From a virus: a stretch of DNA of 41,729 bases. Below, in pieces: positions 3,590 through 31,431 of this stretch (its first letter is position 1; every line of letters starts with the position of its first letter). The notes under the pieces were generated by a model. That model was not told the origin of the DNA. It was given only the letters and a program-made list of their open reading frames with translations, and did not search any database. The DNA is taken from the IMG/VR virus record IMGVR_UViG_3300012011_000002, positions 1 to 41,729 of that record, one strand, 5' to 3'. A program made the position numbers and the translations under genes.

Positions 3590-4722
3590 GCGCCGAGCGG
3601 TTGGATGTAGTGGTGCGCCCGGCTCTCGCCCTCCGGCGCCAGGTGGACGACGCTGCGCGCCGTGCTCTTGGCGGTCAGGCGCACCTGGTCCTGGGGGATC
3701 GCCCCCAGGGCATCCAGCAGGTAGGCATTGTCCAGGTGGATCGTCAGGTCGCCGCCCTGCGGGTCCAGGGCGGCGACTTCGGCGGTCTGCTCGCCCATCC
3801 CCGCCCCGGCTGAGGCCACGACCAGCACTGGGCCCTTGCCGCCCGCCGGCCGGAAGGTGAGGGCGACCTTGCGTATCTCGTCGCTGGAGACCAGCGCGGC
3901 CAGGCGAGCCGCCCGGCGCAGGTCCTCGGTTGCTACCGTCGCCGCCGTATCGTTGCCGGCAGCGGTCTGCGGGACGATCTCGTAGGCCAGGTAGCGCCCG
4001 GCCAGCAGCGTCGAGTTGACTACCGTCTCCCCCCAGCCGAAACGCACCTGGCGATCGGAGTAGCTGAGCGCCACCGGGCCGGTCACGCCGTTCAGCAAGC
4101 GCATGACCTCACGCATGGCCGGGACCGGCACCACCAGCTCGATCTGGCGCCCCTCCTCGAGCGGCAACGGGACCTCGGCCACGGAGAGATGAAACTTGTC
4201 GCTCGCCGCCAGCGTGAGCAGGTCCGGCGCCAGGCGCAGGCAGATCGAGACCAGGAGGGGGTACTCGTTGCTGCGCGCCGCTGCTCGTTGCACACTGTCG
4301 ATAGCCTGCCGCAACGAGTCGGCGTCCAGGTCGGCCCGCGCGGTCAGCGTCTGGCTGGTCCCGGAAGGGAACTCCGACGGGTCGAGGCCGTTCAGGCGCA
4401 TGGTCTGCCCGGGCGCGGAGAGGGTCAAAGATTGGCGGCGCGGGTCTACGCGCAGGCGCACCTGCTCCCCGCGCACGCCCCCGACGCCGTCCGTCAGGAG
4501 GCGCGCCGGGATCGCCAGCGATCCCTCGCTGGCCAGGACGGCCGTCAGCGCCTGGGTCACCGTCAGGTCGCCGTCGGTGGCGGTCACCAGCAGCCGGCCG
4601 CCTTTGGCGCGCAGCAAGAACATGGGGCTGCCCTGGGCCCCCTTGGCGGTGGGCACGATGCGCACGGCCGCCTGCAGCAGCTTCGCCAGCGGCTCCCGCT
4701 CGACCGTCAGATCAAAGGTCAC
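3586..4722 (-). CDS. dnaN: DNA polymerase III beta-type sliding clamp
   Basis: At 378 residues it has the usual size of bacterial DnaN (about 365-380). Family hallmarks are present: an N-terminal FDLTVEREPLAKLLQAA helix, TDGDLTV in domain 1, a three-fold repeat of beta-rich domains, the ASDKFHLSVAEVPLP strand of domain 2, HLDNAYLLDALGAI of domain 3, and a C-terminal HHYIQPLGA that corresponds to the hydrophobic-pocket strand. The clamp encircles DNA and tethers polymerases and other proteins by short QLxLF-type peptides. It is the third gene of a minus-strand operon with the KGG and ubiquitin-like genes, overlapping the latter by ATGA (4719-4722). A phage-borne clamp suggests replication that is partly independent of, or competes with, the host clamp. 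Confidence 0.85.
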   Translation of the reverse strand: MTFDLTVEREPLAKLLQAAVRIVPTAKGAQGSPMFLLRAKGGRLLVTATDGDLTVTQALTAVLASEGSLAIPARLLTDGVGGVRGEQVRLRVDPRRQSLTLSAPGQTMRLNGLDPSEFPSGTSQTLTARADLDADSLRQAIDSVQRAAARSNEYPLLVSICLRLAPDLLTLAASDKFHLSVAEVPLPLEEGRQIELVVPVPAMREVMRLLNGVTGPVALSYSDRQVRFGWGETVVNSTLLAGRYLAYEIVPQTAAGNDTAATVATEDLRRAARLAALVSSDEIRKVALTFRPAGGKGPVLVVASAGAGMGEQTAEVAALDPQGGDLTIHLDNAYLLDALGAIPQDQVRLTAKSTARSVVHLAPEGESRAHHYIQPLGA

Positions 4723-5030
4723 CAGAGTGGCCGTTGCTCGGCCGAGTGCAGGGGCCGGGGGCGTCGGCGGGTGCGGAAGGCTGTCCCGTTGGGGGCGGGC
4801 AGGGTGGCGCCGCCGTCGATGGTGTCCAGGTTGGTCACCTGCTGTCCGGCCACGAGCAAGAGGGTCGCCACGTCGCGCGTGAGGCCGGCCGCTGCCAGGA
4901 CGCCGTCGCTGGTCAGCGGCTGGTCGGATCGCCAGTCGTAGCTGACCCCATTGACGCTAAAGCGGCGCAGGGGCCGCGGCACCAGGGTGTTGCCGGGCGC
5001 GTCGGCCGCAAACAAGGAGAGCTGGGGCAT
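4719..5030 (-). CDS. Ubiquitin-like (multi-ubiquitin type) protein with N-terminal clamp-binding motif
   Basis: The 103-residue protein begins MPQLSLFAAD. QLSLF at residues 3-7 is the canonical beta-clamp-binding pentapeptide. Residues 22-88 (RRFSVNGVSYDW ... LTSDGVLAAAGL ... LLLVAGQQV ... TID ... FRTRRR) follow the layout of prokaryotic multi-ubiquitin / beta-grasp domains: VNG-x-x-Y-x-W strand, T-x-x-x-I-L-x-x-A-G-L helix, a hydrophobic strand, and a final F-R-T strand. A basic tail ends RPLW, not the Gly-Gly of conjugated ubiquitins. It lies between a KGG-repeat protein (ATGA overlap at 5030) and the clamp gene (ATGA overlap at 4722). The simplest reading is a clamp partner; conjugation is not supported. 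Fold assignment is by eye. Confidence 0.7.
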   Translation of the reverse strand: MPQLSLFAADAPGNTLVPRPLRRFSVNGVSYDWRSDQPLTSDGVLAAAGLTRDVATLLLVAGQQVTNLDTIDGGATLPAPNGTAFRTRRRPRPLHSAEQRPLW

Positions 5031-5338
5031 CAGACCACCTCCTCGACGGCGGGCAGACGGGCCGCGTTGCGGGCGCGCGCGCCGCGCCGGGCCAGGGTGG
5101 AGTAGTAGGCGCCGTCGTGGCTGGAGCGCGTCTGCTTGCCGCCCTTGCGCCCGATCTCGCGCATGTGCTCGCTGCCGTGGGCGGCCTGCAGCGCCTTGCC
5201 GCCCTTGCGGCCTAGCTCGCGGAAATAGTCGCTGCCGTAGCGGTCGCGCAGCGCCTCTCCGCCGCGCGGCTGGCCATCCGTCTCGCCGAGCGGCGGCACG
5301 GCCGCCTCGAGCAAGAGTTGGGCTGGGGTACTGGTCAC
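5030..5338 (-). CDS. KGG-repeat protein (stress-induced/acidophilic-repeat-like)
   Basis: The 102-residue protein contains three tandem units: YGSDYFRELGRKGGKAL, HGSEHMREIGRKGGKQT, and a degenerate HDGAYYSTLARRGARAR. The [YH]GxxxxxxIGRKGGK pattern is that of the KGG / stress-induced bacterial acidophilic repeat, found in small, charged, probably disordered proteins such as Con-10-like and general stress proteins. Its biochemical role is unclear. An AAGGAG site precedes ATG 5338, and a consensus sigma-70-type promoter lies directly upstream (5393-5422). It is first in the operon with the ubiquitin-like and clamp genes. Confidence 0.75.
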   Translation of the reverse strand: MTSTPAQLLLEAAVPPLGETDGQPRGGEALRDRYGSDYFRELGRKGGKALQAAHGSEHMREIGRKGGKQTRSSHDGAYYSTLARRGARARNAARLPAVEEVV

Positions 5339-5392: not shown

Positions 5393-5422
5393 AGCATACC
5401 GCCCGCGTCGTGCGGTTGTCAA
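5393..5422 (-). promoter_or_regulatory. Sigma-70-type promoter of the KGG / ubiquitin-like / clamp operon
   Basis: On the minus strand TTGACA (5422-5417) is followed after 18 bases by TATGCT (5398-5393). Just upstream is a sequence that reads TTGTGATGG on the plus strand (5427-5435), related to a motif at three other promoters. The promoter overlaps the 3' end of thyX and gives the clamp operon its own transcription start. Confidence 0.75.
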
Positions 5423-6303
5423 GTCGTTGTGATGGCGATGTGATGCTTGTCCGGGGGCTCGGCCGGGGGCAGCGTGACACCCAGGACGCTCTGGAAGCGC
5501 TCGCGGGTCTCCTGCCCCTCACCGCCAGCCGGCAGGGCGGCGTGCGGCCGGTTGGCCAGCAGGCTCCGCAGCAGCGCGATCTCGTCGCGGGAGAAGGTGA
5601 CGGCGTCGCGCTCGAAGTCCACCCAGGCTTCGTAGCAGAGGGGGAAGCATTGGGCCACGATCTGCTGCAGGGCCTCAGCGTAGGCGCGGATTTCCTGCTG
5701 GGCGTGGGCGTCCAGGCGCAGCCCCAGGAAGTGCAGCAGGTTGCGCAGGTTGATCGACCAGTAGAACTCGGTATAGAGGGCGAGCGGCAGGTTGATGCGG
5801 GCGAGCTCGCGGGCCACGCCGAGGCCCAGGTAGGTGCGGTAGGCGTCGTCCAGGTGTTGCTGGTCGGTCGCCATGTCCTGGACCACGTCAAACTCCGGGC
5901 TGGGCGGGAGTGTCGTGCCGCTCGACCCCTGGCGGTTACTGGTGCTCTGCAGGCGCACCCCGTCATGGGGCGGCAGGTAGCACTCGTCCGTCATCTCGCT
6001 GTAGCGCCCGGAAATCTCGTTGATGGAGACCGTGCGGTGGCGCATGAGCTGCCGGGCGACGAAGATAGGGCACTTGATATGGTAGACCTGCTGGCACATC
6101 TCGAAGGGCGTCATGTGCTGGTGGCGCATGAGGTAGCGCAGCAGGGCGCGGGATGAACGGCGCGGGGTGCTGGTGGGGCCGTAGCTGACGCGGGCGCTGC
6201 GGATCACCGCCGCGTCGCTGCCCAGCATGTCCTCCAGGCGCACGAAGCCATGGTCCAGGACAGGACGTATCTCGAAGCGGTCGTCGGGAGCGGTGGTCGC
6301 CAA
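5419..6303 (-). CDS. thyX: FAD-dependent thymidylate synthase ThyX
   Basis: ThyX makes dTMP from dUMP using methylene-tetrahydrofolate, FAD and NADPH. The diagnostic motif RHRxxSxNExSxRY is present as RHRTVSINEISGRY at residues 88-101. Other family features include the N-terminal SARVSYG, RYLMRHQHMTPFE (substrate/flavin region) and a C-terminal ARINLPLALYTEFYWSINLRNLLHFL block. The best start is TTG 6303, with AAGGAG (CTCCTT at 6310-6315) six bases away, giving 294 residues; the longer frame to 6378 lacks a ribosome site. It is well conserved and looks functional. It sits among replication and DNA-modification genes, consistent with thymidylate supply during infection. Confidence 0.93.
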   Translation of the reverse strand: MATTAPDDRFEIRPVLDHGFVRLEDMLGSDAAVIRSARVSYGPTSTPRRSSRALLRYLMRHQHMTPFEMCQQVYHIKCPIFVARQLMRHRTVSINEISGRYSEMTDECYLPPHDGVRLQSTSNRQGSSGTTLPPSPEFDVVQDMATDQQHLDDAYRTYLGLGVARELARINLPLALYTEFYWSINLRNLLHFLGLRLDAHAQQEIRAYAEALQQIVAQCFPLCYEAWVDFERDAVTFSRDEIALLRSLLANRPHAALPAGGEGQETRERFQSVLGVTLPPAEPPDKHHIAITTT

Positions 6304-6407
6304 TCTGCTCTCCTTCTCCTGCGGCGCGACACACGCGCGCCGTCGTCCCATGATACATCGGGCGGCCGTCGCTGCCATGACTGCGCCCGGCGCGACGCAG
6401 GGCCGTT

Positions 6408-7290: not shown

Positions 7291-7527
7291 TCACGCCGGC
7301 GGCGTGTCGTCCTCGTTGGCCGGGCGCACCGCACTACCGACCTCGGCTCGGGGGCTGTCGGTGCGGAAGCGCAGCACCTCGGGCGTCGGTGGCCGCGCCA
7401 GATCGAAACTGAGGCGGGCGAGCGGCACGGTCGCCTCCATGAGGGCTTGCGCCGCCTCTGGGCTCGCGGCGGTCACCAGCATGCGGCCCGCGCCGCTGTA
7501 GTCAAAGGCAATGCTATATGTCGGCAT
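7291..7527 (-). CDS. Hypothetical protein, 78 aa
   Basis: A short protein beginning MPTYSIAFDYSGAGRMLVTA, with a predicted beta-alpha-beta start (SIAFDYSG, then SPEAAQALMEATVPL) and an acidic, disordered C-terminus (NEDDTPPA). Its ATG lies 14 bases inside the end of the upstream methyltransferase, in keeping with the tight packing. No family is recognised. Confidence 0.6.
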   Translation of the reverse strand: MPTYSIAFDYSGAGRMLVTAASPEAAQALMEATVPLARLSFDLARPPTPEVLRFRTDSPRAEVGSAVRPANEDDTPPA

Positions 7528-8254
7528 ATGCGGCCATCCTACTCATGATCCCCTCGCTGCTGGCCAGGAGCCGCTCCAGGCGGCCGGCCGCTTTCTCGCA
7601 CGTTGCTTCCTCGACCTCAATGCCGACTGCTGTGCGCCCTTCGCGCCAGGCAGCCTCCAGCGTCGAGCCGCTGCCGGCAAAAGGATCGAGCACCCGCTCC
7701 CCGATGATACTGGAGGACTCGATCAGCTGGCGCAGCAGCAGGACCGGCTTCTCCGTTGGGTGAAGGGCGACCTGGCCACTGTGCAGGCGCTGGCAGTGGA
7801 TGATCGACCCCCGGCGCAGGCGGGCCGCCAGGTTGCCCGCCCCCTTGGCCCGGTTGGCCTTGCTGTGTTCGTAGACGCCGAAGGTGATGATCTCGTGGCT
7901 ACTCCCCCAGGGGAGGGCCAGGTCACCCAGGCCGATAATGCCCTTGTCCCAGATCAGCTCAGCGAGCCCGCACAGGGGCAGGGCACTGAGGTCGGCCGGG
8001 CCAAAGACGTAGGCGTGGCGGCTCCGGCGCATGGTCTTGAGCGCCAGCGCCAGACAGGCCGCGATGTCCAGGGAGCCGTCGTCCCCCGCCATGACGGCGA
8101 AGGGGACCGCCCGGCGCCTCCCGCTCGTCCACTGCTGCCCGTAGGGCGGGTCGGCGATCAGCAGGTCGCTGCTGTCGGCAGCCAGGGACGGCAAGACCTC
8201 CCGGCAGTCGCCATAGTACAGGGTCATGCCCCCGGCCTGGAAATAGGGGGTCAT
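7514..8254 (-). CDS. DNA adenine-N6/cytosine-N4 methyltransferase (DPPY, beta-class order)
   Basis: The ATG at 8254 starts MTPYFQAGGMTLYYGDCREV, the usual N-terminus of this family. Motif IV is LLIADPPYG (DPPY at 35-38). The target-recognition middle leads to HPTEKPVLLLRQLI and motif I VLDPFAGSGS (from residue 188). Motif IV before motif I is the beta-class order, seen in many phage N6-adenine and N4-cytosine enzymes. The longer open frame to 8494 lacks family similarity and overlaps the zinc-protein gene. The start overlaps that gene's TGA (ATGA), so the two are coupled. No cognate endonuclease is adjacent. Confidence 0.88.
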   Translation of the reverse strand: MTPYFQAGGMTLYYGDCREVLPSLAADSSDLLIADPPYGQQWTSGRRRAVPFAVMAGDDGSLDIAACLALALKTMRRSRHAYVFGPADLSALPLCGLAELIWDKGIIGLGDLALPWGSSHEIITFGVYEHSKANRAKGAGNLAARLRRGSIIHCQRLHSGQVALHPTEKPVLLLRQLIESSSIIGERVLDPFAGSGSTLEAAWREGRTAVGIEVEEATCEKAAGRLERLLASSEGIMSRMAAYADI

Positions 8255-8436
8255 CCGGCGACGGGTACGGCGCACTCGCAGTGCTTCAGGCACTTGGTGC
8301 AGGTCCGGCAGGCGGGTGGCCAGCAGAGATGGTTGCCGGCTCGCTGCTGGACGCCGCAGCACCAGCAGGTCTCGCTGAGCAGCGGATGGTACTCCGTGGG
8401 GGTGTAGGGAACACCGGCTGGCGTGGGGGCGGGCAC
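8251..8436 (-). CDS. Small cysteine-rich zinc-binding protein
   Basis: Translation from GTG 8436, with AAAGGAG (plus-strand CTCCTTT, 8444-8450) seven bases upstream, gives 61 residues. Cysteines are arranged CWCCG, LCW, CRTCTKC and CEC, enough for one or two zinc sites. It is the first gene under the minus-strand arm of the divergent promoter at 8.5 kb and is coupled by ATGA to the DPPY methyltransferase. It may be a DNA-binding or structural accessory to that enzyme; this is inference from position. Confidence 0.65.
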   Translation of the reverse strand: MPAPTPAGVPYTPTEYHPLLSETCWCCGVQQRAGNHLCWPPACRTCTKCLKHCECAVPVAG

Positions 8437-8479
8437 GGGACAACTCCTTTGCCCTGGGCGACGACACCGCCGCCGTTGC

Positions 8480-8529
8480 TTGCGTTGACCGCATCTGCGT
8501 ATTATACTACGCGCTGGACATAGCGCCAA
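8480..8529. promoter_or_regulatory. Divergent overlapping promoters with palindromic core
   Basis: Plus strand: TTGCGT (8480-8485), 17-base spacer, TATACT (8503-8508), driving the lysin operon. Minus strand: TTGGCG (8529-8524), 17-base spacer, TATAAT (8506-8501), driving the zinc protein / methyltransferase genes. The two -10 boxes overlap. They lie inside the perfect inverted repeat GCGTA-TTATAC-TACGC (8497-8512), so a factor bound there would block both directions at once. Confidence 0.7.
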
Positions 8530-8551: not shown

Positions 8552-10927
8552 ATGGCAGCGGCATCGCTCGGACTGCACGCCCAAGTGCTTTCTCCGGCTG
8601 TGCTCGACCTCTGCCGCCGTTTGCAACCAGCGCTACTGGTCACCACCGACCTCGATCCCGGCCGCCTGCAAACCGCCGCGGCCTCGACCGGCCTGCTGGT
8701 GGGGCGCGTGTACATAGCTGACGAGACGGTCTGGTACGGGCACGGCACCGCCCTGGGGCAGCACTTGCTGGACGCGCTCGGCCCGGGCGCGGCCTTTGTG
8801 GACGTGGTGCAGGTGCTCAACGAGCCGGTGCTGCGCGCGGGCGACGTGGCGCAGGCGAGCCTGGTGGCGCAGACGATCGTCGATGCCTGCGCGGTGCTGG
8901 CGGCGGCCGGGCACGCCACCGTGGTCGGCAACTTTAGTCGGGGGACGCCGCCGCTCGTGACCGACGACGGCGGGGCGGTGCTGACCGCGCTGCTGCCGGC
9001 CTTCCGTGCCGCTACCTACGTCGGCCTGCACGAGTACGGCGTCCACTTTGTCCAGGACGGCCAGCCCTACCTCTGCGGGCGCTTCGTGAGCCTGCTGGCC
9101 TTCTGCGGCGACCATCATCTCTACCCCCAGGTCCTGATCACGGAGTTCGGCATCGACCTGGGCGTAGACTCGGCCCTCTCCGGCTACCGCGCCGTCGGCG
9201 TGAGCGACATGATCTACTTCGACGGCATCCGTTGGTATGCGGGGCTGGTCGCCGCCTACCCCCAGGTGCGCGGCTTCGCCCTCTTTGAGGTCGGGGCCTA
9301 TCCGCCCTTTGCCAGTTTCGATGTCCTGGACGGCACGCTGCCCGACCGGCTGGTGGTCTGGCAAGACGCCAACCGCCCGACGCCCGCGCCGGTACCCACG
9401 CCCGCGCCAGTGCCGCTTCCCGCTCCCGTGCCGGCGCCCAGGCCGGTCCCGCTCCCGGCCCCCGTACCCGTGCCCCCACCCCTCCCAACGAAAGGACCTC
9501 CGATGCCCGCACCTGACTACGCGCCGGCGGTTTGGCTCGGCAGCCCGCACAGCTGGCCCGGCCGGCCCGGCCCGATCACCCACCTGGTCCTGCATGGCAC
9601 CGGCTCCCCGGACGGCCGCGGCGCCCTGGGGGTCAAGAGCGTCACCAACACTTTCCAGGACCCCAACGCCGTCAACCCGGTCTCGGCGCACTACCTGGTG
9701 ACCTCCCTGCCGGACCCCCGGCGACCAGGCATGACCATCGTGCAGCAGTACGTGCATGAGGGCGACCAGGCATGGGCCAACGGCATCCCGGAGCCGGGCG
9801 CCGACGCCCAGTTCCTGGACGGGCGCAACCCGAACGCCTACACCATCGCCATCGAGACGGACAACGATAGCGCCAACGATCTCGACCTGACGCCGCCCAT
9901 GCTGGTGACGCTGCTGGCGCTGGCGGAGGACATCCTCGCGCGCCATACCAGCATCCCGCGCGACGACATGCACGTCGTCGGGCACTACCGCATCAGCCCG
10001 CAGAGCCGGGCGCGCTGCCCCGGTCTCAACTTTCCCTGGTGGGAGGTCTATGCTGCCCTGCACGTGCAGGAATCGGCCCCAGGTGACACGCAAGGGCACT
10101 GGGACGTACCGGTACTCGACCAGGGCTTCGGCGCCGGCCTGAACACGCTGCACTGCGGCGACACGGCGGCGGCCGAGGTCCTCCAGGCGCTGGGCAAGCG
10201 CCCGGCCGGCCTGGACGACAAAACCTGGATCGAACAGGTCTTTGCCTGGGTCCACCCCGGCTCCCCCTGGAGCGACATCGGCATCCTGACCACCCCCCAG
10301 CAGATCGTCAGCGCCGTGCAGGGGCGCTTCCCCGACGTGCGGGCGACCCTGCTCACCAGCGAGGCGAGCCTGGAGACCGCCCTCGCCCAGGGCGCCTACG
10401 TGGAGGGCTTCGTCCGCCAGTCCACCCTGGACGGCAGTGGCGCCGACACCTTCAACCACTTCGACGTGGCGGAGGGGATCGAGGGCGGCCAGGTCAAGGT
10501 CGTGGATAGCGACCGGGCCATCGACTACGGCACCAATGAATACCCGCTCACCGTCTTTCGGGCGGGCGAGGAGGCAGCCCCGGCGCTCGGTTATGGCGTC
10601 GCGTTCTGGAAGGAAAACATCGTGGACCCAGACATCGCAGCGGCGCGCGCGACCCTGCTGGAGGGCAACCCGAACGCCGTCTACGACGAGGCCGGGGCGC
10701 TCTTTGCCGAGTATCTGATCATTCACAAGAATTGGATAGCGACCGGCAAGCGTGCGTCGATGTTCCCCGGCTACCTCTTGCGTAACGAGTGGGCCAACGG
10801 GACGGACGCCTACTGGGCGCTGGGTAACGCCGTCGTCCTGCACTGGCATGGCGGCCTCGTCTCAGCAGCGGAGGCCAAGGAGCGCAGCTCGATCTTCCTG
10901 CGCTGTGGTTGGGGCCCGTCATCGTGA
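8552..10927 (+). CDS. Modular endolysin: glycosidase-like, amidase and C39-like peptidase domains
   Basis: The 791-residue protein has three catalytic-looking modules. Residues 1-270 resemble a clan-A TIM-barrel glycosidase: VQVLNEP (acid/base Glu 91) and LITEFGID (nucleophile Glu 198). A proline/valine linker (about 275-315, PAPVPTP repeats) leads to an N-acetylmuramoyl-L-alanine amidase (amidase_2 type): VLHGTGS (His 348), TIAIETDND, and VVGHYRISPQSRARCPG (His 478). The last part has LNTLHCGDTAAAEVL (Cys 535) and NHFDVAEG ... VKVVDSD (His 636), the pattern of C39-like papain-fold peptidases. There is no signal peptide, so release would need a holin. ATG 8552 follows a GGGGGG stretch; ATG 8540 is an alternative. 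The amidase call is firm, the other two less so. Confidence 0.8.
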   Translation: MAAASLGLHAQVLSPAVLDLCRRLQPALLVTTDLDPGRLQTAAASTGLLVGRVYIADETVWYGHGTALGQHLLDALGPGAAFVDVVQVLNEPVLRAGDVAQASLVAQTIVDACAVLAAAGHATVVGNFSRGTPPLVTDDGGAVLTALLPAFRAATYVGLHEYGVHFVQDGQPYLCGRFVSLLAFCGDHHLYPQVLITEFGIDLGVDSALSGYRAVGVSDMIYFDGIRWYAGLVAAYPQVRGFALFEVGAYPPFASFDVLDGTLPDRLVVWQDANRPTPAPVPTPAPVPLPAPVPAPRPVPLPAPVPVPPPLPTKGPPMPAPDYAPAVWLGSPHSWPGRPGPITHLVLHGTGSPDGRGALGVKSVTNTFQDPNAVNPVSAHYLVTSLPDPRRPGMTIVQQYVHEGDQAWANGIPEPGADAQFLDGRNPNAYTIAIETDNDSANDLDLTPPMLVTLLALAEDILARHTSIPRDDMHVVGHYRISPQSRARCPGLNFPWWEVYAALHVQESAPGDTQGHWDVPVLDQGFGAGLNTLHCGDTAAAEVLQALGKRPAGLDDKTWIEQVFAWVHPGSPWSDIGILTTPQQIVSAVQGRFPDVRATLLTSEASLETALAQGAYVEGFVRQSTLDGSGADTFNHFDVAEGIEGGQVKVVDSDRAIDYGTNEYPLTVFRAGEEAAPALGYGVAFWKENIVDPDIAAARATLLEGNPNAVYDEAGALFAEYLIIHKNWIATGKRASMFPGYLLRNEWANGTDAYWALGNAVVLHWHGGLVSAAEAKERSSIFLRCGWGPSS

Positions 10928-11913
10928 GTGCGGCGGCCTCGCTGCAGGCCGCGCCGGTGGTCTCCATCACCCCCGCCGACGCGCTTGCCTGCTACCCCTC
11001 CTGGCCGGCGCCGCACTGTATTGTGGCGGACGGCGCCTACGGCCTGGCCGGCTTCCCGGGCGATCCCCGTTCGCCGGAGGCCCTGCCGGCGTGGTACGCG
11101 CCGCACCTGGCGGCCTGGACCGCGGCGGCGCAGCCGGCAACAGCGCTCTGGTTCTGGAATAGCGAGGTCGGCTGGGCCACCATGCACCCCAGCCTGCACG
11201 CAGCCGGGTGGGACTACCGCGTCTGCCATATCTGGGACAAGGGCAAAGGACATATCGCCGGGCGCGTCAACAGCAACACCGCTCGGTCCTTTCCCATCGT
11301 CACGGAGGTCTGCGTCTATTACAGCCGCCCGGCAGTCTTCGTGCGCCCGGACGGCGAGGCGCAAACGACCCAGCAGTGGCTGCGTGCCGAGTGGCAGCGC
11401 ACCGGCCTCCCCTTCTCCTCCGCCAACACGGCATGCGGCGTGGTGGACGCGGCCAGCCGGAAGTACCTGAGCGCCGACTACCGCTGGTACATGCCGCCGC
11501 CAGACCAGCTGGCGCGCCTGACTACCTATGCCAACCGCTACGGGCGACCAGAGGGGTCGCCCTATTTTCAGCTCCCTGCCGGGTTGCAGGCAATCCCCTG
11601 GGAACGCCTCTGGACAACCTGGAACTACAGTCACGGCATCACCAACGTCTGGTGTGAGCCGGCCCTGCGCGGGAAGGAGCGGCTCAAGATCGGCGCCGGC
11701 CGCACCCATCCCAACCAGAAACCCTTGCGTCTGATGGAGCGGATCGTGGCGGCGTCCACCCGGCCGGGTGATGTCGTCTGGGAGCCCTTCGGCGGGCTCG
11801 GTACCGCTGCTCTGGCGGCGGCGCGTCTCGGACGCGCGTGCTACAGCGCCGAAATCGACCCGACCCTGGCCAGCCTGGCCCGTGCGCGGCTACTGACCCG
11901 GGCCGCCGCCTGA
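10924..11913 (+). CDS. DNA methyltransferase with variant motif IV (DGAY)
   Basis: The GTG at 10924 overlaps the lysin stop (GTGA), giving 329 residues. A late HPNQKPLRLMERIV segment followed by VWEPFGGLGTAALAAARLGR is the C-terminal motif I block of beta-class N6/N4 methyltransferases. Where DPPY is expected there is IVADGAYGLAGFPG (DGAY at 36-39), so the catalytic loop keeps D and Y but not the two prolines. The middle (VCHIWDKGKGHIAGR, TWNYSHGITNVW) probably recognises DNA. Activity may be altered; it could also act on an unusual base. An alternative TTG start lies at 10909. Confidence 0.75.
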   Translation: MSAAASLQAAPVVSITPADALACYPSWPAPHCIVADGAYGLAGFPGDPRSPEALPAWYAPHLAAWTAAAQPATALWFWNSEVGWATMHPSLHAAGWDYRVCHIWDKGKGHIAGRVNSNTARSFPIVTEVCVYYSRPAVFVRPDGEAQTTQQWLRAEWQRTGLPFSSANTACGVVDAASRKYLSADYRWYMPPPDQLARLTTYANRYGRPEGSPYFQLPAGLQAIPWERLWTTWNYSHGITNVWCEPALRGKERLKIGAGRTHPNQKPLRLMERIVAASTRPGDVVWEPFGGLGTAALAAARLGRACYSAEIDPTLASLARARLLTRAAA

Positions 11914-11949: not shown

Positions 11950-12144
11950 ATGGCCTACGATCGTTCCGGCATCGCCGATCCTCCCCGGCTGGACCGGCCC
12001 TGTACCGGGCCCGATGGGCACCACCATATCGTCATCGCCGACCGCTCGGACGGTCAGGAACAGCCGGTCTGCATGCACTGTGGCGCGGTCGGCGCTGTGC
12101 TGCAGCGCGGCCAGAGTAATGCCCCCCGCGTCCTCAGCAAGTGA
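11950..12144 (+). CDS. Small zinc-binding protein
   Basis: ATG 11950 gives 64 residues, with an ACGAGGA ribosome site upstream; an earlier in-frame ATG at 11926 is less well placed. Residues C-T-G-P-D-G-HHH-I-V-I-A-D and V-C-M-H-C-G-A-V-G form a likely Cys/His zinc site ending in a CxxC knuckle. The stop overlaps the GTG of the next methyltransferase (GTGA), so they are probably co-translated. The role is unknown. Confidence 0.65.
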   Translation: MAYDRSGIADPPRLDRPCTGPDGHHHIVIADRSDGQEQPVCMHCGAVGAVLQRGQSNAPRVLSK

Positions 12145-12989
12145 CCGATCACGTCCCGGCCAGTAGCGCCGAGCTTGATCTGGCGGACTGGCGGGCCAGT
12201 GATCTCCTGACCGACTCCCTCTGGCATCTCGGCGCGCGCGACCGCAGCGGGCCGCCCCTGGCCGGCTTCTACGGCGCCTTCGTGCCCCAGATACCCAACC
12301 AGCTGCTGCGTCGCTACACCCAGCCCGGCGACACCGTGCTGGACCTCTTTTCCGGCAGCGGCACCACCATGGGCGAGTGCCTGCGCCTGGGCCGCCACGG
12401 CTACGGGGTAGACCTGGACCAGGGCGTCCTGGATCGCTCCCGCAGCTGGCTCGACCAGCAACACAACCCCGGCGCCGTCACCATCACCCTCTTTCGGGGG
12501 GACGCCACCCAGCAGCAGACCGAGCAGGTGCTCACGGCCGCGATGCTGGCCGAAGGGCGCCCGGCCCCCAACCTGATCCTCCTGCACCCGCCCTACCACG
12601 ACATCATCCGCTTCGGCACCGACCCGGCCGACCTCTCCAATCTGGCCACCGTGACCGACTATCTGGCCGCCATGCACGAGGTCGCGGCGCAGACCATGAC
12701 CCTGGTGGCGCCCCGTGGCCACGTGGCCCTGGTCATGGGCGACATCTACCACGACGGCGAGTTGATCCCGCTGGCCTTCCTCACCATGGCCGTGCTGCAG
12801 TCCTCCGGCCTGACCCTCAAGGCGATCTGCCTGAAAGACCTCGCCGGCAACGAGCACGGCAAGGGCAAGAGCGGCCAGCTCTGGCGCTACCGGGCGCTCA
12901 AGTTCGGCCTCTATCTCATGGCCCACGAGTACATCTTCATCTTCCAGCGCCCGCCCGCGCGCCGGCGCGCAGCCCGCGCCCTTCCTTAG
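12141..12989 (+). CDS. DNA methyltransferase with HPPY motif
   Basis: The 282-residue protein starts with GTG overlapping the preceding stop. SLWHLGARDRSG and FVPQIPNQLLRRYTQPGD precede motif I VLDLFSGSGTT (66-76) and LGRHGYGVDL, then motif IV LILLHPPYHDII (HPPY at 149-152). This is the common phage/plasmid N4-cytosine or N6-adenine type in which motif I precedes motif IV. The first position is His instead of Asp/Ser/Asn. A C-terminal strand EYIFIFQRP is typical. It forms a coupled pair with the small zinc protein and follows another methyltransferase. Confidence 0.85.
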   Translation: MTDHVPASSAELDLADWRASDLLTDSLWHLGARDRSGPPLAGFYGAFVPQIPNQLLRRYTQPGDTVLDLFSGSGTTMGECLRLGRHGYGVDLDQGVLDRSRSWLDQQHNPGAVTITLFRGDATQQQTEQVLTAAMLAEGRPAPNLILLHPPYHDIIRFGTDPADLSNLATVTDYLAAMHEVAAQTMTLVAPRGHVALVMGDIYHDGELIPLAFLTMAVLQSSGLTLKAICLKDLAGNEHGKGKSGQLWRYRALKFGLYLMAHEYIFIFQRPPARRRAARALP

Positions 12990-19565: not shown

Positions 19566-19855
19566 AAGGCAAGGAGCGCGTAAGTGCCGGCCCTGCGCCT
19601 GCCGTGACCCTGCCCATCCTGCCAATCGCCTGGTCGCCCCGGGATCAGGAGCTCGCCGCGCTCCAACGCCGGCACCAGGAGGCGATCTGTGCCGCGTTCG
19701 CGCTGCCAGCACACATGCTCGTCGTTTCGGTTGGAACCATCACAACCGCACCACAACGACTTGACAAAGCCATCACTTATGCCGTATCGTACTGGAGTGA
19801 CGACGCAGACGTAAGGGACGATGATGGTAACGATAGGACGACCCAACCCGGCTAG
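19562..19855 (+). CDS. Hypothetical protein, 97 aa
   Basis: ATG 19562 overlaps the previous stop (ATGA). The protein has a helical centre (PRDQELAALQRRHQEAICAA then FALPAHML) and an acidic end (SDDADVRDDDGND). Its last 35 bases overlap the MoxR gene start in another frame. Base composition matches the lower-GC exported-protein gene, so the pair may have come in together. The AAFALPAHML segment faintly recalls part of HK97-type portal proteins, but the rest of a portal is absent. Confidence 0.5.
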   Translation: MKGKERVSAGPAPAVTLPILPIAWSPRDQELAALQRRHQEAICAAFALPAHMLVVSVGTITTAPQRLDKAITYAVSYWSDDADVRDDDGNDRTTQPG

Positions 19856-21029
19856 CCACGGCGATCTGGCCGTGATCGCCTGGCAGATCGGCCTGCAGAC
19901 CGGTCTGCCGACGATGGTGCAGTCTACCTTCGGCGAGGGTAAGACCCAGACTTTACACATGTTTGGGCGCATCCACCAGCGCTATAGCGAGGTGGTGATC
20001 GCCTCCCTCTACGACGTGCAGGACTTCCTGGGCTACCCGTCGGAGCAGCCGGACGGTGACATGGCCTTCCGGCCCGCCCCTTTCCTGAAGCGCCTGCGCA
20101 ACGCCGGCCGGCGCGGCGAGCCCTGCATCCTGGGGCTAGACGAGATCACCACGGCGGCGCCGGAAGTGCAGAAAGCGCTCCTGCGCGGCCTCAACGAGGG
20201 TATCTTCGGCGAGACGCCGCTGCCGCCGGGTACCTGGATCGCCCTGGCCGGCAACCCGGCCGACATCGCCACCGATGGCTCGCCGCTCACCGGTGCCTTC
20301 ATGAATCGCATCATTCAGTTCGATTTCGCCACCAGCGACGAGGACTGGCTGGTCCAGCGCACGATCGGCTTCCCGGACGTGCTGCCGACCGTGCTGCCCG
20401 CCACCTGGCGCGCCGACCACCTGCCCGCCCAGATGCTGGCGACCACCGACTTCCTGGCCGCCAAGCCCAGCTTGATCCGCGACGTGCCGAAAACGGAGGC
20501 CGGGCGCAGCCAGCCCTTCGCCACGCGGCGCAGTTGGGATAGCGTGGCCCTGGCGCTGGCGGCCTGCGCCAGCGTCGGCTACCAGCACAGCGACAGTATC
20601 GCGGCGCTGCTGGTGGACGGTCTCGTCGGCAAGCGCTGTGGTGATCAACTGCGGGTCTACCTGACCATGCGCGATCTGCCCAACCCGGCCGAGGCGCTGG
20701 CCAACCCGGACGCCTTCGTGCTGCCGACGCGCGGCGACCGCATCCTGGTGGCGCTCACCAGTATCACCGCCTACGTGGAGGAGGCCCGCCAGCGGGCGCT
20801 GCTGACCGGGGAGGCCGCCGAGTGGCGCGACCGCTGGCAGCGCGCCACCCGCCTCTTTGCGCGGGTGGGGCGCCAGGGCGACCGCAGCCTGGTGGCGCTG
20901 GCCGTGCGCCCGCTGCTGCGTCAGCAGCCGCACGGGGAGCGCCCGCCGGCCGAGCTCGCCGAGTTCTTGCCGCTGCTGCACCAGGCAGGGGTCGATCAAA
21001 CGGTGCCGGTGTTGGCGCGCATGCGCTAA
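19824..21029 (+). CDS. MoxR-type AAA+ ATPase
   Basis: The protein (401 residues from ATG 19824, five bases after AAGGGA; ATG 19821 is adjacent) is a AAA+ ATPase. Walker A is STFGEGKT (Lys 40) with Ser instead of the first Gly. Walker B is CILGLDEIT (Asp 106, Glu 107), with EVQKALLRGLNEG after it, sensor 1 ALAGNPAD (Asn 144) and GAFMNRI as arginine-finger region. MoxR ATPases act as chaperones that mature enzymes, usually with a VWA partner. The partner is present two genes on (22080-23774). The C-terminal 150 residues are helical and not conserved with textbook MoxR. Confidence 0.82.
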   Translation: MVTIGRPNPASHGDLAVIAWQIGLQTGLPTMVQSTFGEGKTQTLHMFGRIHQRYSEVVIASLYDVQDFLGYPSEQPDGDMAFRPAPFLKRLRNAGRRGEPCILGLDEITTAAPEVQKALLRGLNEGIFGETPLPPGTWIALAGNPADIATDGSPLTGAFMNRIIQFDFATSDEDWLVQRTIGFPDVLPTVLPATWRADHLPAQMLATTDFLAAKPSLIRDVPKTEAGRSQPFATRRSWDSVALALAACASVGYQHSDSIAALLVDGLVGKRCGDQLRVYLTMRDLPNPAEALANPDAFVLPTRGDRILVALTSITAYVEEARQRALLTGEAAEWRDRWQRATRLFARVGRQGDRSLVALAVRPLLRQQPHGERPPAELAEFLPLLHQAGVDQTVPVLARMR

Positions 21030-21889: not shown

Positions 21890-22087
21890 ATGGCCCTCCT
21901 GGAGCGCACGGTCTGCGCCGCCGGACACACGACTACGGCGAGCGATTACACCCGGCTCCCCAACGGTCGCCGCGTCTGCTTGCGTTGCTTAGCAGCGCGC
22001 GGCGCTGCACGCCCGTTAGCTATGACAAAAGCATCACAATATGCTACACTGCCAAGAGACGTGGAGGAGGAGACATCGCATGCCTGA
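21890..22087 (+). CDS. Small zinc-binding protein (HNH-like treble-clef remnant)
   Basis: ATG 21890 immediately follows the TAG of the preceding gene. The 65-residue product has VCAAGHTTTASDYTRLPNGR followed by RVCLRC: Cys-x3-His, an Asn-Gly-Arg turn, then CxxC. This C-G-H ... G-R-R-x-C-x-x-C pattern is common in small phage proteins and in the zinc knuckle of HNH nucleases; the catalytic HNH residues are missing. Its 3' half contains the promoter of the next gene. Confidence 0.6.
   Translation: MALLERTVCAAGHTTTASDYTRLPNGRRVCLRCLAARGAARPLAMTKASQYATLPRDVEEETSHA
22022..22050 (+). promoter_or_regulatory. Promoter of the metallopeptidase-VWA gene
   Basis: ATGACA (22022-22027), a 17-base spacer, and TACACT (22045-22050) with TGC before it (extended -10). 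The spacer holds GCATCACAA (22031-22039), the reverse of the TTGTGATGC motif seen upstream of dnaB and at 7248. The segment TATGCTACACTG (22040-22051) occurs again at 40259-40270. The promoter lies inside the coding end of the small zinc gene. Confidence 0.6.
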
Positions 22088-23774
22088 CACCCTGCCGGCC
22101 GCCTGGGACGTGGCCACGCAACAGTATTGGGAAGCCATGCGCGTGGCAGCCTGTACGGCTTGGCCCTACCTGAGTGAGGGCTTTGCCGCGCTCGTGCCCT
22201 GCCACGACCCCAGCGAGTCAACGATCAGCGTTGATCGCTACTGGCGCGTCTACGTCAACCCGGAGGTCCTGCTGCGCTGGCCTATCGCGCAGGCGGCGGT
22301 GGCGCTCTACCACGAGCTCTGGCACCTGACCCGCGAGCACCCCCAGCGCTACCTGGCGGTCGCCGGCGACTACCCGGCGCTCAGCAACGACCTGGTGCTG
22401 GAGCTCTGGCAGCAGGCGTGCGAGGCGGAGTGCAACGCCCTGATCCTGGAGGAAGGGCTGACCCTGCCGGTGGAGCCGGTGACGGCGGAGACGCTGCGCC
22501 TGCCGCCCCACGGCACGGCCGAGGAGTACCTGGCCCTGCTGGTGGCGCGCCAGCAGCAGCAGCAAGCCCGGGCGGAAAAGCAGCAGCAACAGCAGGCGCA
22601 GACCCAGCCCGGCCAGCCGCAGACAGGACAGGCCCAGGCGGGCCAGCAGGCCCAGGCCGGACAGCCGCAGCCAAAGCCCGGCCAGCAGCCCGGCGAGGGC
22701 GGTGGCCAGCAGCCCCAGGCGGGCGCGCGGCCCGGCCAGCAGCCGGGCGGCCAGGCGGGTCAGCCCGGCACCGACACGTCGGGCACGGGGGGGCCATCAA
22801 CAGACGGCGCGGCCGCTCCCCGTCCGGGGGACCCGGCAGGGCAGGTCCCTGCCGGCGCCTCTGACCACCCGGCCGCCCCGTCGCCCGCACCTGCCGGCCG
22901 CTTCGGGAGTCGGGCGTCCGCGCCCGCTCGCCATGCGGCGGCAGGTGCGCCAGCGAGTCCCCCCGCGCCGGACGCAGCGGGCACGGGCGAGCAGGCTGGA
23001 CCGCACGATTGCGGCTCCGCCAGTGGTGGCCCCCGGCGACGCTGGGAGCGCGGCCACCCCGACCAGGAGCAGGACGCCCCTGGCCTCTCGGAGAGCCAGA
23101 TCGGCACCGTCCTGGACGCGATGGCTCACCGCATCGAGGAGAATACCGATCAGTACGGCGACATGCCTGCCGCCTGGCGGCGCTGGGCCAGCGTGCATGG
23201 GCGCGTGGTGGTCAACCGACGCTTGCTCTGGAGCAACGCCGTCGCCCAGCACCTCTACTACGTGCGCGGCCAGGGGGCCGCGACGTTCCGCCGCCGCTCA
23301 CGCCGCCAGGGCATGGTGCGGCGTCAGCCGGGCCTGGGGCGACCTGTCCTGCCCGGTCGCCGCCGCCCGGTGCCGAGCGTGACGGTCTGCATCGACACGT
23401 CGGGCAGTATGGGCGACGCCCGCGTCAGCCACGCCCTGACCTGGACCCAGGGTGCGCTGGAGGCGCATGGCATCCGCCGGAAGGTGCGTGTCGTCACCGG
23501 CGGGACCGGCGTCGCATCGGCTGCCAGTGTCTGGCACGCCAGCCAGGTGATCCCGCTGGGCGGCGGTGGCACAGACATGGGCGCGCTGCTCACGGCGGCG
23601 ATCGAGATGACGCCGCCCAGCGACGTGATCATCTGCCTCACCGACGGTCTCACGCCGCGCTGGCCCGAGCGCCCGCAGCGGCACGTGCGCGTGCTGGTCG
23701 GCCTCTATGGCCGTCCGTCCTTCCCGCTCCCAGACTGGCTGGAGAGCTTCGCCCTGATCGAGGAGGCCGCCTGA
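22080..23774 (+). CDS. Metallopeptidase-like / von Willebrand factor A domain protein
   Basis: ATG 22080 follows GGAGGAGGAG and yields 564 residues. The N-terminal domain carries YHELWH (HELWH at 78-82), a HExxH zinc-protease motif, with DLVLELWQQACEAECNALI downstream as a likely third-ligand helix. Residues 160-330 are a Gln/Gly/Pro-rich linker with GQ-P/A-Q-A-G-Q repeats. The C-terminal VWA domain has the MIDAS sequence CIDTSGSMGD (Asp 439, Ser 441, Ser 443) and later GGGGTDMGAL and CLTDGLTP. The architecture matches the DUF2201 / VWA-like family that is genomically linked to MoxR ATPases, here two genes upstream. Whether the peptidase is active is unknown. Confidence 0.82.
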   Translation: MPDTLPAAWDVATQQYWEAMRVAACTAWPYLSEGFAALVPCHDPSESTISVDRYWRVYVNPEVLLRWPIAQAAVALYHELWHLTREHPQRYLAVAGDYPALSNDLVLELWQQACEAECNALILEEGLTLPVEPVTAETLRLPPHGTAEEYLALLVARQQQQQARAEKQQQQQAQTQPGQPQTGQAQAGQQAQAGQPQPKPGQQPGEGGGQQPQAGARPGQQPGGQAGQPGTDTSGTGGPSTDGAAAPRPGDPAGQVPAGASDHPAAPSPAPAGRFGSRASAPARHAAAGAPASPPAPDAAGTGEQAGPHDCGSASGGPRRRWERGHPDQEQDAPGLSESQIGTVLDAMAHRIEENTDQYGDMPAAWRRWASVHGRVVVNRRLLWSNAVAQHLYYVRGQGAATFRRRSRRQGMVRRQPGLGRPVLPGRRRPVPSVTVCIDTSGSMGDARVSHALTWTQGALEAHGIRRKVRVVTGGTGVASAASVWHASQVIPLGGGGTDMGALLTAAIEMTPPSDVIICLTDGLTPRWPERPQRHVRVLVGLYGRPSFPLPDWLESFALIEEAA

Positions 23775-30135: not shown

Positions 30136-31431
30136 ATCACCGACAGGACGCCCTACCACACCACCCCCGCCGGGCGCGGCCAGCTCTGGCTCGGTGACGC
30201 GGCGCTGCTGCTGCCCGAGATCGCCCCGGCCTCAGTAGACCTCATCATGACCAGCCCGCCCTTCGGCCTCGTGCGTAAGAAAGCCTATGGCAACGCCGAC
30301 GCCGACGCCTACCTGGAGTGGTTCCGGCCCTTCGCCGCCGCCTGCAAGCGGGCGCTCAAGGACAGCGGCAGCCTGGTCATCGACATCGGCGGCGCCTGGG
30401 TGCCCGGCCAGCCGACGCGCTCCCTCTACCACTTCAAGCTGCTCATCATGCTCTGCGAGGAGTTCGGCTTCCACCTGGCTCAGGAGTTCTATTGGTGGAA
30501 CCCGGCCAAGCTGCCCACGCCGGCGGAGTGGGTGACGGTGCGCCGCATCCGGGTCAAGGACGCCGTGAACACGGTCTGGTGGCTCTCGCCGACCCCCTGG
30601 CCCCGCGCCTCCAACCGCCGCGTGCTCCAGCCCTATAGCGATGCCATGAAAGCACTGCTCAAGAACGGCTATAACGCCCGGTTGCGCCCGTCGGGACACG
30701 ACATCAGTGAGCATTTCTCGACGGACAACGGCGCCGCCATCCCGCCGAACCTGCTGGCGCTGGCGCACACCGAGTCCAACAGCGCCTACCTGCGCCACTG
30801 CCGGGAGCGCGGTCTACCCGTGCATCCCGCCCGCTTCCCGGCCGGCTTGCCGGAGTATTTCGTGCGCATGCTGACCGACCCGGGCGACCTGGTGGTGGAC
30901 CCCTTCGCCGGCTCCTGCGTCACCGGGGAGGTCTGCGAGCGGCTGGCCCGCCGCTGGGTCTGTATCGAGGAGCAGGAGGACTACCTGTTGGGCGCCCTCG
31001 GCCGCTTTGCGCCGCCGGGCGATGCTCCGAAACGGGTGTCCGGTGGGGAGGATGCGTACCGCGTGCCGCGCGTCGGCCTGCACTGGACGGCGGCGGTGCC
31101 ACCACCGCTAGCGCCGGATGGGGGACGGGTCCGCCCACCAGCGCAGCAACCCGGCAGGGGCCAGCCCGCCGGGACGCCACTAGCGGCCCCCGACCGTTCC
31201 TGGCGCGCCATCGGGGCTGCCGCTGGCGGCCGCGTCGGGTCCGCGGCCAACCGTGAAGTGCCGGCCCACTGCCCAACCCAGGCCGGCGCCCGCAACGCCG
31301 GCCGGCACCAGACGGAGGATCAGTCCCCCCGGTCACCAGGCATGTGCGCCACAGCCACTATACTACCGCAGACGGGTCCGGCCGGGCAACTGGTGGCCGC
31401 TGCGCTTGACAGCGCCGCGCGCAGTCCGTAG
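30136..31431 (+). CDS. DNA methyltransferase (TSPPF type) with apparent ATC start
   Basis: Family conservation starts well before the first ATG (30247): GQLWLGDAALLLPEIAPASV leads to VDLIMTSPPFGL (TSPPF at 39-43). Upstream there is no ATG, GTG or TTG in frame clear of the previous gene; ATC 30136 follows AGAGGA by four bases. Motif I DPFAGSCVTGEV (255-260 and on) lies at the C-terminal side, followed by RRWVCIEEQEDYL. TSPPY/F with this order is typical of N4-cytosine enzymes. After about residue 300 the chain becomes a Pro/Gly-rich tail of roughly 130 residues outside the family. A strong terminator follows. Confidence 0.82.
   Translation: MTDRTPYHTTPAGRGQLWLGDAALLLPEIAPASVDLIMTSPPFGLVRKKAYGNADADAYLEWFRPFAAACKRALKDSGSLVIDIGGAWVPGQPTRSLYHFKLLIMLCEEFGFHLAQEFYWWNPAKLPTPAEWVTVRRIRVKDAVNTVWWLSPTPWPRASNRRVLQPYSDAMKALLKNGYNARLRPSGHDISEHFSTDNGAAIPPNLLALAHTESNSAYLRHCRERGLPVHPARFPAGLPEYFVRMLTDPGDLVVDPFAGSCVTGEVCERLARRWVCIEEQEDYLLGALGRFAPPGDAPKRVSGGEDAYRVPRVGLHWTAAVPPPLAPDGGRVRPPAQQPGRGQPAGTPLAAPDRSWRAIGAAAGGRVGSAANREVPAHCPTQAGARNAGRHQTEDQSPRSPGMCATATILPQTGPAGQLVAAALDSAARSP

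Follow-up and report, generated by a model that had tools for sequence, protein, structure and literature searches.

A small gene directly ahead of a phage dnaN, here called W, encodes a protein that opens with a peptide of the type used to dock on bacterial sliding clamps. This raises the question of whether W is a clamp ligand, what the rest of the protein is and which clamp it would serve. The locus lies on the IMG/VR record IMGVR_UViG_3300012011_000002, a virus contig of 41,729 bases with 70% G+C that was analysed at its full length and is referred to below as the window. The contig is part of a contractile-tailed phage, because it encodes an SPO1-type major head protein, a tail sheath, a DnaB helicase, a class II ribonucleotide reductase and ThyX; its sheath is nearest to those of phages of ~90 kb, e.g. 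Aeromonas ST4 and Bordetella PHB04. On the minus strand, the gene order is thyX, a KGG-repeat gene, W and dnaN (Table 1).

Table 1. Coordinates of W, its neighbours and the sequence elements discussed in the text (positions in the window).
Feature	Position	Strand	Remarks
ThyX-type thymidylate synthase	5419..6318	-	Upstream of W, same strand
KGG-repeat (GsiB/LEA_5-like) protein	5030..5338	-	Stop overlaps W start (TGATG)
Shine-Dalgarno-like GAGGAGGTGG	5034..5043	-	Upstream of W start codon, within KGG gene
W, 103-aa orphan protein	4719..5030	-	N-terminal clamp-binding motif, linker, putative Multi_ubiq-like body, Arg/Pro-rich tail
QLSLF codons (residues 3-7), canonical bacterial clamp-binding motif	5010..5024	-	
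W residues 22-88, full-length alignment to PF14452-type beta-grasp domains	4767..4967	-	
Phage DnaN sliding clamp, 378 aa	3586..4722	-	Start overlaps W stop (GTGA); peptide pocket off usual residues

The product of W is MPQLSLFAADAPGNTLVPRPLRRFSVNGVSYDWRSDQPLTSDGVLAAAGLTRDVATLLLVAGQQVTNLDTIDGGATLPAPNGTAFRTRRRPRPLHSAEQRPLW, and codon usage marks its frame as the only coding one (+0.22, compared to -0.13 to -0.71 for the other five frames). The first-pass annotation described the gene as coupled on both sides, and both junctions bear this out: the stop codon of the KGG-repeat gene and the start codon of W share a single base in TGATG (1 nt overlap), and a 4-nt overlap, GTGA, joins the stop of W to the start of dnaN. 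A strong Shine–Dalgarno site, GAGGAGGTGG, is found just ahead of the W ATG, whereas the GTG start of dnaN has none of its own; the arrangement therefore fits a predicted translational coupling of dnaN to W. The neighbours are also those that had been named. KGG repeats are present in the upstream product, and the downstream product is a DnaN in which all three DNA_pol3_beta domains (PF00712, PF02767 and PF02768) score above the Pfam cut-off, with a match to phrog_947 at 9e-42. The KGG-repeat gene is itself of note as a GsiB/LEA_5-like stress protein gene that occurs in a phage and appears translationally coupled to W, with no relative among GenBank phages.

Clamp ligands are recognised by a free end or loop that carries QL[S/D]LF or QxxLF, and translation of the ORF places QLSLF at residues 3–7, exactly as claimed, within the N-terminal peptide MPQLSLFAADAP that supplies Q3, L6 and F7. 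The bacterial clamp-binding consensus is QL[S/D]LF, and free clamp-binding peptides of QLSLF sequence bind bacterial clamps with KD values of <1 to ~4 μM (PMC12309361). The motif of W is the sole instance of QL[SD]LF among the 55 called genes, where residue frequencies predict ~0.016 occurrences in all genes, 1.2e-4 in W and, for the two neighbours of dnaN, 4e-5 in their first 20 residues. Short motifs are easily gained through mutation, as noted for transposases (PMC4549789), and no conserved homologue backs the motif in W, so QLSLF could in principle be coincidental and W an unrelated small protein that merely precedes dnaN. Against such an origin stand the very low expectation at this position and the agreement with the consensus at all five residues, and we consider it improbable. 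Judged by its sequence, the motif is very probably functional.

The pentapeptide is identical to the motif of Bacillus subtilis PolC (PMC12309361). PolC, a replicative polymerase, has it at the C-terminus, whereas in W it is N-terminal. The clamp-binding protein Hda carries QLSLPL near its N-terminus, and Hda and W are thus alike in having a QLSL-type peptide at the extreme N-terminus that docks, or in the case of W is predicted to dock, on the beta-clamp. Hda is, however, an AAA+ protein that regulates DnaA, and W has no AAA+ domain.

The motif is followed by a linker of ~15 residues, AADAPGNTLVPRPLR, and then by a body that had been likened to prokaryotic Multi_ubiq beta-grasp domains. The HMM check proposed for this likeness gave a negative answer, as PF14452 returns no match at E ≤ 10 (cut-off 24.5 bits), and the body is not recognised by Pfam, PHROGs, NCBIfam or PDB sequence searches. 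As a reference set, 30 PF14452 domains were taken from genomes of Bacteroidota. With a local HMM of ten short repeats, W ranked first of 569 window frames and third against 20,000 shuffles, just above noise, and hhalign of W with Multi_ubiq gave a probability of 38% and an E-value of 3.4e-4, both scores drawing on the first half of the domain only. The local HMMER test was superseded by semi-global alignment over the whole domain, in which W residues 19–92 scored z = 6.0 (5.9–6.6 against Multi_ubiq repeats) and none of 20,000 shuffles was as good. A broader Multi_ubiq profile gave z = 6.6, a separate subgroup profile z ~4 and a long C-terminal-type profile z = 2.8–3.6, while the controls, W in reverse and five more small proteins of the window, stayed at z ≤ 2.5. 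With the first profile, recognised divergent members of the family reached z = 6.8–7.8, and a few weaker ones fell below W. Of 1,027 real phage frames scored, one was as extreme as W (z = 6.25) and three more reached 5.6–5.8.

Residues 22–88 cover PF14452 from end to end, and alignment with the nearest repeats needs a single gap of one residue. W and these repeats have in common F-x-[IV]-N-G-x-x-Y-[ED]-W, an L-T/I-T that precedes the helix, AGL and a final L..P....F-[RY]-[TS]. W differs from Multi_ubiq proteins in being a single domain, phage-borne, at most 28% identical, equipped with an additional clamp-binding motif and without adjacent conjugation genes. AlphaFold models from the single sequence, for W as a whole and for residues 20–90 alone, had pLDDT values of 50–55, too low for a fold search; they contain a beta-hairpin and helices only, and the first 20 residues of the trimmed model have pLDDT ~70. 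The modelled hairpin and helix fit a beta-grasp and prove nothing. The claimed likeness is thus upheld by the full-length profile test and left without a match by the Pfam model itself; the ubiquitin-like body is statistically supported from sequence comparison, and a beta-grasp seems probable. We do not rate it higher, because the family was suggested by the first-pass annotation and was not found blind.

An alternative is that the motif is real and the body is not ubiquitin-like, with W being a fast-evolving tethering factor in the manner of T4 gp33. Phages do use clamp-binding motifs in this way: gp33, an RNA polymerase-binding protein, has a clamp-binding motif, and gp33 and gp55 serve late transcription (PMC7892883). 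The T4 proteins and their clamp gp45 resemble W in combining a small phage protein and a terminal clamp-binding motif with a phage-encoded clamp, and the lack of a PF14452 match, together with the occurrence of VNGxxY[DE]W-type strings in unrelated phage proteins, would agree with such a factor. However, a full-length z of ~6 is hard to reach by chance. Furthermore, gp33 consists of helices throughout and has its motif at the C-terminus, whereas for the start of W a beta-hairpin and then a helix are modelled at low confidence. The T4 clamp gp45 is also of a different type, a trimer. We judge this alternative unlikely.

Multi_ubiq domains occur in operons with E1/E2 enzymes, and the resemblance of W to them raises the idea that W becomes conjugated as a ubiquitin-like modifier, or that it acts as a decoy of a host defence system based on ubiquitin-like proteins. 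The C-terminus, RPLHSAEQRPLW, is an Arg/Pro-rich tail that ends in RPLW and, as had been pointed out, has no Gly-Gly; a processable glycine is absent as well. The genes annotated on the record, which may be a fragment, include no E1, E2, JAB or related gene. On these two grounds covalent conjugation of W appears unlikely, in agreement with the first-pass annotation, and the modifier or decoy reading is disfavoured to the point of being very improbable.

Searches for relatives of W returned no homologue in IMG/VR (8-mers), GenBank phages, plasmids or GTDB genomes. Those of IMG/VR and GTDB required exact 8-residue matches and thus detect close relatives only. IMG/VR was also scanned with degenerate DNA patterns of the N-terminal motif and of VNGxxY[DE]W, and the matches were chance, antisense or unrelated proteins. 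A ThyX-based scan yielded 80 phage loci, one of them with thyX and dnaN together and without W; in this record (L066:7923-9955) a canonical dnaN comes immediately after thyX, and the two small genes that separate the pair in the window are missing. A sheath-based scan gave another set of 80 loci, many from phages of ~90 kb. W was absent from 50 records (49 related by sheath, plus L066), in which DnaN gave weak matches only, L066 excepted. A search with the alignment of W and Multi_ubiq in 50 records, comprising most of the same set and eight further thyX-bearing ones, found nothing credible. Two sheath-related phages of ~92 kb encode a shortened DnaN-like protein (L246:1531-2292 and L247:1081-2223) that matches the later clamp domains only (..DIRYYLNGVYVEP..VATNGHAMGVW.. 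to ..VIMPLRD), domain I seemingly missing.

To see which clamp the motif might suit, we compared the peptide pocket of the phage DnaN with that of E. coli DnaN. The phage protein has K, F and H at 174–176 and ends in QPLGA where E. coli has MPMRL, which gives the changes R365G, M362Q, G174K, R176H and N320D (E. coli numbering). Arg365, Met/Leu362, Arg176 and Asn320 are common to the other clamps compared and are all replaced here, and at G174 the phage protein departs from most, though not all, of them. The pocket keeps L155, L177 and P363, and the replacements P242L and V247I are still hydrophobic. By sequence, the phage pocket can still take hydrophobic side chains, whereas its glutamine-binding half differs. 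Since the pocket is altered yet still hydrophobic, QLSLF could target either the phage clamp or the host clamp.

The case for the host clamp is that the motif is canonical while the phage pocket is not. W would then block the pockets of host DnaN against host polymerase and repair partners, and the altered phage clamp would escape and serve phage replication. The motif is the consensus of ordinary bacterial clamps (PMC12309361), the phage DnaN departs from other clamps at the equivalents of R176, M/L362 and R365 and from most at G174, and the strong Shine–Dalgarno site on W, with none on dnaN, suggests that W may be made in excess. However, coupling to dnaN suits a partner of the phage clamp equally, the phage pocket has kept its hydrophobic part and W has no known inhibitor homologue. 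We regard a host-clamp target as rather unlikely, though the most serious of the alternatives. Somewhat more weight is given to the phage clamp because of the translational coupling to dnaN.

The explanation we favour, tentatively and at slightly less than an even chance, is that W is a co-translated ligand or adaptor of the phage clamp with a Multi_ubiq-like body. We infer binding, target and outcome as follows. The N-terminal QLSLF of this small ligand would dock in the beta-clamp peptide pocket, the linker would tether the body to the docked peptide, and the single beta-grasp body would offer a second binding surface. As W is translated right ahead of the clamp and dnaN seems to rely on coupling, W would most likely work as a partner specific to the phage-encoded clamp, either recruiting another protein (a polymerase, a nuclease, RNA polymerase or a regulator) or filling spare pockets. 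Several findings argue against this explanation: the searches gave no homologue that would show conservation of motif or body, PF14452 does not match, the local HMM score barely exceeds noise and the AlphaFold confidence is low. In addition, the phage clamp is without R365 and M/L362, common to the other clamps compared, so that QLSLF may not suit it, and the other phage with adjacent thyX and dnaN does without W. In a broader form, to which we give a little less credence still, the phage may have joined a bacterial Multi_ubiq-type fold to a clamp-docking peptide, yielding either an adaptor that acts non-covalently on the phage clamp or a pocket-blocking poison of the host clamp to which the pocket-altered phage clamp is immune. 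If true, a ubiquitin-like domain would have a non-covalent role in phage replication, as part of a clamp ligand with such a body, for which we found no describing paper in a partial coverage of the literature. With a ligand encoded next to a pocket-altered clamp, the locus would also lend itself well to testing whether phages take over the host replisome by a 'poison plus resistant replacement'.

Finally, two further features of the window concern other parts of the phage. A MoxR-like AAA ATPase (19821-21029, plus strand) is followed by a DUF2201_N metallopeptidase/VWA protein (22041-23774, plus strand), a chaperone-like pair that is unusual for a phage. DNA methyltransferase matches are found in at least four genes or gene parts (7514-8494, 10909-11913, 12141-12989 and 30247-31431), which suggests heavy DNA modification.
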